Source: Candidatus Bathyanammoxibius amoris
GTDB taxonomy: Bacteria > Planctomycetota > Brocadiia > Brocadiales > Bathyanammoxibiaceae
Direction of reading: 5' to 3'
Assembly (NCBI GenBank): GCA_024451685.1
Contig: JAMXCW010000002.1
Span: 1-64,000 of the forward strand
Length of the DNA: 64,000 nucleotides
Shown here in pieces: positions 30,820 to 35,663 of the stretch. The position numbers and the translations under genes were made by a program. How positions within the stretch are numbered: the first letter of the stretch is position 1; each line of letters starts with the position of its first letter. The notes under the pieces were generated by a model. It searched no databases, was not told the origin of the DNA, and saw nothing but the letters and a program-made list of their open reading frames with translations.

Positions 30820-33435
<2,616 letters not shown>

Positions 33436-33526: not shown

Positions 33527-33883
33527 ATGTTTGCTAAGCTGTTGATTATGTTCTGTTTAATTGTAGGGCTTGCGTTATCGGCTGCTGACCTCGGGGTGAG
33601 CGTTGCTGACGAAGAGACCACTACCATTCAAGGGACGGTTGTCTGCCTTGGGTGCACGCTGAAAAAGACGGAAGGGGCCAATGCCGCATGCAAGGTCTAC
33701 GGTCACAAGCACGCTCTTGCGACAAACAGCGGAGAGCTATACTCTTTCCTCGAAAACAGTAAGAGTGAAGAAGTGATAAACACCGATAAGTATGCCATGA
33801 AAGAAGTGGAAGTTACCGGCAGGGTGTTTGAAAACGCACACATAATTGATCTGGAAGAAATTAGCGTTATCGAGGAGAAATAA
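33527..33883 (+). CDS. Small secreted Cys/His protein, unknown function
   Basis: The 118-residue product has a signal peptide (about 1-27). The mature part starts with strands T-I-Q-G-T-V-V-C-L-G-C-T, then A-A-C-K-V-Y-G-H-K-H-A-L, then E-L-Y-S-F-L, and ends with V-E-V-T-G-R-V-F and I-I-D-L-E-E-I-S-V-I. This looks like a small OB-fold-type domain with three Cys and two His that could bind a metal or react with thiols. I do not know a named family. AAGGAGG precedes the ATG and can be masked by upstream complementarity. It is followed 150 bases later by three thioredoxin-like genes, suggesting a shared periplasmic redox or metal role. Confidence 0.75.
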   Translation: MFAKLLIMFCLIVGLALSAADLGVSVADEETTTIQGTVVCLGCTLKKTEGANAACKVYGHKHALATNSGELYSFLENSKSEEVINTDKYAMKEVEVTGRVFENAHIIDLEEISVIEEK

Positions 33884-34011: not shown

Positions 34012-34033
34012 CGTAGATGAAGGGAGACAAGAC

Positions 34034-34528
34034 ATGCGTAAATTTCTCACCGTGTTTGCCGCAGTTTCGCTTATTATTCTTTTTCTTTCCTGCCTGCCCC
34101 TGTCCGTCAGTGCTGAAGAAGAGGGGGCATTAGGCACGCTTGACCTCCAGGGCCTTAAGCAGCACCTTGCCGAAAACGACGGTAAGGTGGTGTTAATGAA
34201 CTTCTGGTCCCCGTTCTGATCCGTCTGCGGGAGGGAGGTTCCCTTCCTAATGGAGCTTTATGATAAGTACAAAGAAGACGGGCTGGAGATTATAGGCATG
34301 TCCATGGGTGCCCCACCAAATATGGTTAAGCTCTTCATGGAAAAGACGGGTATGAACTACCCTAATTTTATCGCGGGCAAGGACGTACTGGAGACGTACT
34401 CCGTGAGGGCTGTTCCTTTCAATATATTCTTTGGAAGAGACGGTAAGGAACGCGCGAGGGAGTTGGGGTACAACGAGCAGAAGAAAAAGGAGATTGAAAA
34501 GGAAGTAGCGGGGCTTCTGAGGGAATAG
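34034..34528 (+). CDS. TlpA-like thioredoxin, selenocysteine at the active site (UGA recoded)
   Basis: Read through the TGA at 34217-34219, this is one 164-residue protein: signal peptide (about 1-27), then a complete TlpA/ResA-type thioredoxin fold. The active-site stretch is F-W-S-P-F-U-S-V-C-G-R-E-V-P-F-L. The recoded residue 62 replaces the first Cys of the usual W-C-x-x-C site and Cys65 is kept. The cis-proline loop is A-V-P-F-N near 133. Reading frame, length and fold continue without change on both sides of the TGA, and the adjacent paralogue (34573) aligns across it with Cys at this position. A SECIS-like hairpin lies just after the TGA. Probable role: periplasmic disulfide or peroxide reductase. 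The alternative is a truncated pseudogene, made unlikely by the exact placement of the TGA. Confidence 0.85.
34217..34247 (+). promoter_or_regulatory. Bacterial SECIS element with UGA(Sec)
   Basis: UGA at 34217-34219 is followed by a 7-bp stem: GGGAGGG (34229-34235) pairs with CCCTTCC (34241-34247), including one G-U pair. The loop is AGGTT (34236-34240). The first loop G lies 18 bases after the UGA. Bacterial SECIS elements have a short stem directly downstream of the UGA and an apical loop with GG(U), as in E. coli fdhF. The match is by eye. Confidence 0.75.
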
Positions 34529-34572: not shown

Positions 34573-35067
34573 TTGTACAGGACCCTTTTAATCCTGGCCG
34601 TTACGGTATGCGTGTTGTTTTCCTCTCGAACAGGACCCGTTTACGGCAGGTTTATTCCGTTGCTGCCCGGGATAGACCTCTCCGAACTCGAGGCCAGACT
34701 TCACGCCAACAAGGGGAAGGTGATAATCCTTGAGTTCTGGATGCATAATTGCCCAAACTGTCTAAGAGAAGCGCCCTTTATGAGCAAGATGTACCGCAAA
34801 TATAAAAGGCGGGGGCTGCTTGTAATCGGTCTATCCGTAGACGAAGACTACGAAGACGCCCGGGAGTTTGTGTTAATAACGGGCATCAGATATCCCACCT
34901 TTATGGCGGATAAGAGTATTATGGACGCCTTTGGAGTGAAGTCCGTACCGTATCATGTTTACATTGACAGAAAGGGAGGGATACGCTGGCAGGATGTGGG
35001 GTTCTACAGTGACAGAAAGAAAGAGATCGAAAAGAGAATTATCGAGCTGTTGAAGGAAAGTAGTTAG
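34573..35067 (+). CDS. TlpA-like thioredoxin with CxxC site
   Basis: At 164 residues this is the same length as its upstream neighbour. A hydrophobic signal segment (about 1-27) precedes a TlpA/ResA fold with active site F-W-M-H-N-C-P-N-C-L-R-E-A-P-F. The middle has V-I-G-L-S-V-D, a P-T-F-M-A-D region and the cis-Pro loop S-V-P-Y-H-V-Y. The start is TTG after AGGGGGAG. C-terminal K-K-E-I-E-K is shared with the selenoprotein. It is probably a periplasmic thiol reductase acting on cytochrome maturation or other substrates, and it is the canonical-cysteine member of the tandem triplet. Confidence 0.88.
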   Translation: MYRTLLILAVTVCVLFSSRTGPVYGRFIPLLPGIDLSELEARLHANKGKVIILEFWMHNCPNCLREAPFMSKMYRKYKRRGLLVIGLSVDEDYEDAREFVLITGIRYPTFMADKSIMDAFGVKSVPYHVYIDRKGGIRWQDVGFYSDRKKEIEKRIIELLKESS

Positions 35068-35162: not shown

Positions 35163-35663
35163 ATGAGCATGCGAAGGACATTTGTATCAATAACCCTGCT
35201 GCTGGCCCTTATGTCGTGGTCGCCGGCCTACCTTCCTGCAGGCGATAAGACAACAACCGTGGGGAGGCTCAATGCCGCAGAGCTTAGGAACGTAATCAAA
35301 GAAAACAAAGGAAAGGTAGTGGTCCTTTGTTTCTGGAGCACCCTGTCTTCCATTTCCAGAGAGGAAGTGGTCTTTCTGGACACACTCTACGGCGCCGGTG
35401 AGAACGGTGTACTTGAGATTATAGGTGTTAACGTCGAGGGGGCAGAGCCGGACGTAATTGCGTCTTTTGTGGACATAAAGCAGATAAGATACCCCGTATT
35501 TGTGTGTGGGGACAACGTAATAGAGGCCTACGACCTTCAATTCATACCCGTCACCTTCATCCTGGGCAAGGACGGCCGGGTACGGCACAAAGAAATTGGA
35601 TTCAGTGAGGATGCAAAGCCAAGGTTCAGGAAGCTTATACAAAAGTTATCCATGGAAGAGTAG
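35163..35663 (+). CDS. TlpA-like thioredoxin with SxxS in place of CxxC
   Basis: The third tandem paralogue starts from the ATG at 35163 (or 35169) and has about 166 residues: a signal peptide, then the same fold. The site corresponding to CxxC reads F-W-S-T-L-S-S-I-S-R-E-E-V. Both Cys are Ser, encoded TCT and TCC, one base from TGT and TGC. V-I-G/I-I-G-V-N, I-R-Y-P-V-F and the cis-Pro loop F-I-P-V-T-F are intact, so the fold appears maintained while thiol redox chemistry is lost. It may be a binding or chaperone-like partner of the other two. An upstream GTG at 35136 is open but gives a poorer signal peptide. Confidence 0.83.
   Translation: MSMRRTFVSITLLLALMSWSPAYLPAGDKTTTVGRLNAAELRNVIKENKGKVVVLCFWSTLSSISREEVVFLDTLYGAGENGVLEIIGVNVEGAEPDVIASFVDIKQIRYPVFVCGDNVIEAYDLQFIPVTFILGKDGRVRHKEIGFSEDAKPRFRKLIQKLSMEE

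Follow-up and report, generated by a model that had tools for sequence, protein, structure and literature searches.

Thioredoxin-fold selenoproteins in which selenocysteine (Sec, U) occupies the position of the first cysteine of a CxxC active site have already been catalogued, and a 2026 review lists UxxC proteins of the PF00578, PF08534 and cd02966 (TlpA-like) types (PMC13188914). The gene described here, paralogue A, lies in a window comprising the whole analysed stretch of 64,000 nucleotides from Candidatus Bathyanammoxibius amoris (contig JAMXCW010000002.1). Its product shares the TlpA/AhpC-TSA thioredoxin fold with the Prx-like thiol:disulfide oxidoreductase, thiol-disulfide isomerase-like and Redoxin selenoproteins of that review, and has in common with those families the replacement of the leading CxxC cysteine by Sec and the existence of widespread Cys homologues. 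The comparison, which was made by description only, also showed differences: the reviewed families belong to a different lineage, the motifs of the window family are USVC/UDVC/UATC and UPHC/UPSC, and the genes of the window family, unlike the reviewed ones, stand in tandem with paralogues that have Cys or lack it.

Related proteins were also found closer to the organism. Other Planctomycetota (loci L151, L152 and L153, in genomes G077, G095 and G138) contain TlpA/ResA-like frames with the motif W-x-x-W-U-G-P-C, which are probably further selenoproteins. Like the window protein they place Sec at the first Cys of a TlpA/ResA-like domain, but they carry UGPC and some of them lie within longer multidomain frames. 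The same domain and Sec position characterize the ResA-like WAxxUGC motif protein (NF041054, WAxxUGC_long); the window protein scored 34 bits against this profile and did not reach its cut-off of 300. The initial annotation had considered that an exported protein of this type would be an unusual selenoprotein, and this is overstated given the TlpA-type UxxC proteins in the review and the UGPC genes of other Planctomycetota. The kind of protein is already known; what this case adds is the lineage, the Sec/Cys/Cys-less tandem array and the readable history. Literature titles and abstracts on selenoprotein plus anammox and on selenocysteine plus Brocadia included none that treated Sec use in this lineage, word searches in papers on deep-Sep and Porphyra planctomycetes returned nothing on the family of the window protein, and a plasmid search gave distant TlpA-type matches only.

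Table 1. Position and basis of the features of the array and its surroundings (all in window coordinates).
Feature	Position	Strand	Basis or remark
clpB, conserved upstream neighbour	30820..33435	+	also beside Cys homologue in Brocadiaceae
Shine-Dalgarno region ahead of the ATG, GAAGGGAGACAAGAC	34017..34033	+	direct sequence
Paralogue A, predicted Sec-containing TlpA/ResA-like thiol-disulfide oxidoreductase gene	34034..34528	+	read-through translation, Pfam
Predicted Sec codon TGA, first active-site Cys position	34217..34219	+	identical alignment column in homologous TGA genes
SECIS hairpin with a stem of 7-8 bp and an apical GGU loop on an A-U closing pair	34229..34247	+	folding, RNAalifold
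Paralogue B, CxxC (W-M-H-N-C-P-N-C), predicted secreted	34573..35067	+	alignment, tree
Paralogue C, without either of the active-site Cys (S-S-I-S), predicted secreted	35166..35663	+	alignment, tree

The read-through translation of paralogue A (Table 1) comprises 164 amino acids with a single in-frame TGA at residue 62 (W-S-P-F-U-S-V-C), and 102 codons lead from that TGA to a TAG. This bore out the original proposal that a lone TGA falls on the first active-site Cys and is followed by 102 codons in the same frame, and alignment likewise confirmed that paralogue B pairs a C-x-x-C across the TGA site. Inspection of the sequence showed a good ribosome-binding site 5' of the ATG. By eye, the N terminus looks like a hydrophobic signal with an AxA-type site, MRKFLTVFAAVSLIILFLSCLPLSVSA|EEE, and residues 3-18 form a helix in the AlphaFold model; the protein would be exported by means of this putative signal peptide.

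In the SECIS element of E. coli fdhF, the GGU apical loop occupies nucleotides 21-23 when numbering starts at the U of UGA. The window hairpin (GGGAGGGAGGUUCCCUUCC, folding energy -11.3 kcal/mol) has its GGU at this same position, but differs in having no bulged U, its stem being uninterrupted over 7-8 bp. The hairpin starts 9 nucleotides after the TGA, with the first unpaired loop G at 18 nucleotides, precisely as initially claimed for a 7-bp stem. Among the 1859 TGAs of the window, the one in paralogue A was the only one followed by 7 bp and a GGU at nucleotides 21-23. The bacterial SECIS (bSECIS) constraints quoted in PMC13188914 were satisfied as well (a GGU loop on an 8-bp stem, at a spacing of 17 nt and with -11.3 kcal/mol), so the suggested bSECIS check was passed, although the generic rule is a loose one that 24 of 150 random window TGAs (16%) also passed; as sole evidence it was rejected for this reason. 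The shuffled-energy z-score of the lone window hairpin (-1.4) is similarly unremarkable, and the worth of the hairpin as evidence lies in its conservation rather than in that score.

The conservation of both codon and hairpin was followed in a homologue search that covered 147 related whole genomes, together with direct translation of selected stretches. A TGA in the same alignment column was found in 11 homologous genes from eight genomes of one family in the order Brocadiales, with one such gene each in the window's own genome, G002, G003, G004, G006 and G008, two in G005 and three in G007; orthologues of paralogue A with the TGA are present in G004, G002 and G005. The family is Candidatus Bathyanammoxibiaceae by its named member, Planctomycetes bacterium RIFCSPHIGHO2_12_FULL_52_36 (G008), which carries a Sec gene and has been placed in that family (PMC9723696); the window's genome falls in the same family group, f1. 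The seven relatives that keep the Sec codon are groundwater or sediment bacteria, their genomes were assembled separately, and protein identity among the TGA homologues is as low as 35-40%. A contig scan for relatives showed that loci outside the family are more distant and that nearly all of them have Cys at the alignable site.

All seven stem pairs and the GGU loop were present at the same distance in 11 of the 11 TGA homologues (10 distinct), while the combination occurred in none of 108 distinct Cys homologues, one of which had a GGU at that place. RNAalifold recovered the seven pairs with compensatory changes at two of them (at the loop-closing pair A-U becomes C-G, and at the other G-C becomes A-U). 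In the hairpin alignment 100% of the paired cells could pair, against 91.9% after shuffling and no more than 83% when the partners were slid, and the covariation score was 0.26 against 0.12. For the five divergent pairs in which it was computable, dS was 0.17-0.50 over the hairpin codons against 1.1-1.4 for the whole stretch after the TGA. The dN/dS ratio was 0.08-0.20 before the TGA and 0.13-0.30 after it, which indicates that what follows the TGA is protein sequence under purifying selection.

Sec machinery was sought in the genome to which the window belongs, since its absence had been named as grounds for abandoning the proposal, and all of selA, selB, selC and selD were present. The tRNA-Sec scored 70 bits and was called by ARAGORN as tRNA-SeC with anticodon tca (UCA); selA (576 bits) and selB (376 bits) adjoin each other, and selD scored 352 bits. 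The SelD gene has an in-frame TGA of its own (CGG-U-AGK), and a full-length FdhA, the formate dehydrogenase alpha subunit, has a TGA in CART-U-HAPT followed by its own GGU-loop hairpin. These two textbook selenoproteins serve as internal positive controls. Of the other eight members of the family, seven yielded a selA match, as did many genomes of the Brocadiaceae group (f5); the f3 genomes of this order yielded none. Two further features of the sel loci were observed. A membrane protein of ~208 amino acids without a Pfam match is encoded just before selA (L154:2736-3362, C2 of the window's genome). It is linked to selA-selB, on their upstream side, in each of the seven family genomes inspected (L161-L166 as well), and is a candidate transporter, perhaps of selenium. 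In G013, G014, G016, G019, G023, G041, G054 and G059 the selA match is split into two in-frame pieces by ~100 additional bases, in most cases around model position 50-60, which looks like an insertion in SelA.

The protein itself was assigned to the TlpA/ResA-like fold family by Pfam matches to Redoxin (52.8 bits, cut-off 26.6; E 5e-14), AhpC-TSA (46.9 bits, cut-off 26; E 3e-12) and Thioredoxin_8 (42.3 bits, cut-off 27). The AlphaFold model (pLDDT 90) has the ResA fold, with U62 just before or at the beginning of helix 63-82; P128, which is invariant in the homologue alignment (A3), directly precedes strand 129-133. ResA was both the top structural match in Foldseek (1st9) and the best sequence match in the PDB (E 1e-20). 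ResA/StoA of Bacillus (NF002854, NF041202; PDB 4nmu, 1st9) are the best matches by structure and sequence, and U62-x-x-C65-x-x-E68 of paralogue A mirrors C74-x-x-C77-x-x-E80 of ResA (PDB-title numbering). It differs in that Sec replaces the first Cys, and it falls under both family cut-offs; the score with the ResA profile (NF002854/PRK03147) was 85.8 bits against a cut-off of 170, and by that profile test it is therefore not a ResA orthologue. No resBC or cytochrome-maturation genes were present among the neighbours of the array that were examined; genes for ResB-type cytochrome c maturation occur elsewhere in the same genome.

What the TGA represents was weighed against three other explanations. 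It could be a sequencing or assembly error for TGC or TGT, or mark a fresh pseudogene, and indeed the assembly is a draft and both paralogue B and the Brocadiaceae homologues have Cys at the site. The initial annotation had named homologues that expose such an error as grounds for refutation, and the TGA is instead kept in 11 genes of eight genomes, which shows that it is not one; taken with the co-conserved hairpin and the purifying selection downstream, this leaves error or decay barely credible. A true stop, yielding a 61-residue secreted peptide and a separate, internally started product (for example from the ATG at 34249, ~30 nt past the UGA), would fit the normal use of UGA as a stop in this genome. 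This is very improbable, since the UGA falls within the active site, constraint runs unbroken from one side of it to the other, the Cys homologues are single proteins and the hairpin is specific to the UGA copies. Nor is it credible, except at the very margin, that UGA encodes an amino acid throughout the organism, as the in-frame TGAs in three genes might suggest: TGA is the stop codon of 15 of the window's 43 long frames, which means that there has been no global reassignment, and the three genes all have their TGA at classic or homologous Sec positions. The frame, the conserved TGA, the hairpin, the selection, the Sec machinery, the synteny and the ordinary TGA stops together identify a genuine selenoprotein gene, neither an error nor a pseudogene, and we put the probability that paralogue A is an intact bacterial selenoprotein gene with Sec at residue 62 at about 96%. 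Selenium would accordingly be expected at that residue, to judge from the sequence evidence. Note that conventional gene calling splits or drops such a gene, and the one Sec paralogue of the array may thus be absent from annotations.

A separate question is what the selenoprotein does. Most likely, from fold and motif, it is an extracytoplasmic thiol-disulfide reductase, and confidence in its detailed function is moderate. It could be that it acts in peroxide defence, or in a relay between paralogues A, B and C, rather than in ResA-like disulfide reduction, especially as AhpC-TSA and Redoxin were matched as well as TlpA/ResA and the array contains both redox-active and redox-dead paralogues. 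We consider this somewhat unlikely: its U-x-x-C active site is that of a disulfide reductase, not the PxxxTxxU motif given for selenium peroxiredoxins (PMC13188914), and the top matches by sequence and by structure are to ResA. Points against the reductase assignment are the ResA score below the cut-off, the lack of a cytochrome-maturation gene among the examined neighbours of the array, and the Cys-less paralogue C, in which the scaffold has been kept although redox chemistry is lost.

For a ResA-like disulfide reductase, the following course of events may be envisaged. A ribosome arriving at the UGA would meet the hairpin, SelB carrying Sec-tRNA-Sec would bind the GGU loop, and Sec would be inserted at residue 62, so that the resulting U-S-V-C active site would stand where helix 1 begins in a thioredoxin fold of the TlpA/ResA type. 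Exported by its signal peptide, the protein would work as a thiol-disulfide reductase outside the cytoplasm and would probably be re-reduced by DsbD; by analogy with ResA, apocytochrome c is a plausible client in this cytochrome-rich, anammox-type lineage. The redox direction, the partner (DsbD) and the client are what we infer rather than observe. The genome has a single DsbD-type gene (L154:602-2457, C2). In the window's genome and in G005, dsbD and a thioredoxin gene lie divergently beside the operon of the membrane protein, selA and selB; dsbD is beside selAB in G002 and G004 too, where the contigs end within or just after dsbD. In G003, whose contig is short there, and in G006 and G007, no dsbD was detected next to selAB. 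The four genomes with dsbD at this place are those that have an A-type selenoprotein (G000, which is the window's own, G002, G004 and G005).

Across the family the order of genes is dnaK-clpB, the array, and a 2-hydroxyglutaryl-CoA-dehydratase-like gene on the opposite strand. In Brocadiaceae-group genomes a C-x-x-C homologue directly adjoins clpB, and because clpB is thus a neighbour of both, the Sec and Cys genes derive from one locus. The window also encodes, at 33527-33883, a small secreted-type protein with a C-L-G-C motif and without a Pfam match; a protein 81% identical to it lies likewise between clpB and the Sec gene in G002. In the tree the A genes formed a clade in which all are Sec genes, and the Sec genes of G003, G005, G006, G007 and G008 joined paralogue B of the window, G001, G002 and G004 (100/97); these related genes of the former five are UxxC, and paralogue B of the window is CxxC. 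The C genes formed their own clade, with CxxC in G005 and no cysteines in five of six genomes (window S/S, G001 V/S, G002 D/S, G004 S/S, G006 S/S). The Cys-less paralogue C persists in place in the window and in the orthologues L052, L053, L055 and L060, and is possibly a redox-dead thioredoxin-fold partner. In paralogue B of G002 the first Cys is lost (E-D-N-C), so that the Sec protein has the only complete active site of the array there.

Two changes of the Sec label are needed on the tree, and the starred branches force two. Rooted on Brocadiaceae, the simplest account of these sequences would be that the array arose behind dnaK-clpB with one Cys-to-Sec gain in the common ancestor of paralogues A and B, that one Sec-to-Cys reversion followed in the B copy of the window and its close relatives, and that paralogue C lost its cysteines within the array. 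The Cys-bearing B genes retain 4-6 of the 7 hairpin pairs, a possible remnant of a Sec past; this sign of a Sec-to-Cys change is suggestive only, as protein similarity alone raises pairing.

One interpretation of the array is that A, B and C make up one unit, in which a Sec reductase works with a Cys paralogue and a Cys-less partner or docking subunit. We regard this as doubtful, but if true it would give bacteria of the anammox lineage a previously undescribed, selenium-dependent system of extracytoplasmic disulfide reduction, perhaps of apocytochrome c. Among close relatives, one syntenic place appears to record the gain of Sec from Cys, a return to Cys and the loss of both cysteines, and the array is in this respect a clean case for studying the reasons for which Sec is gained and lost.
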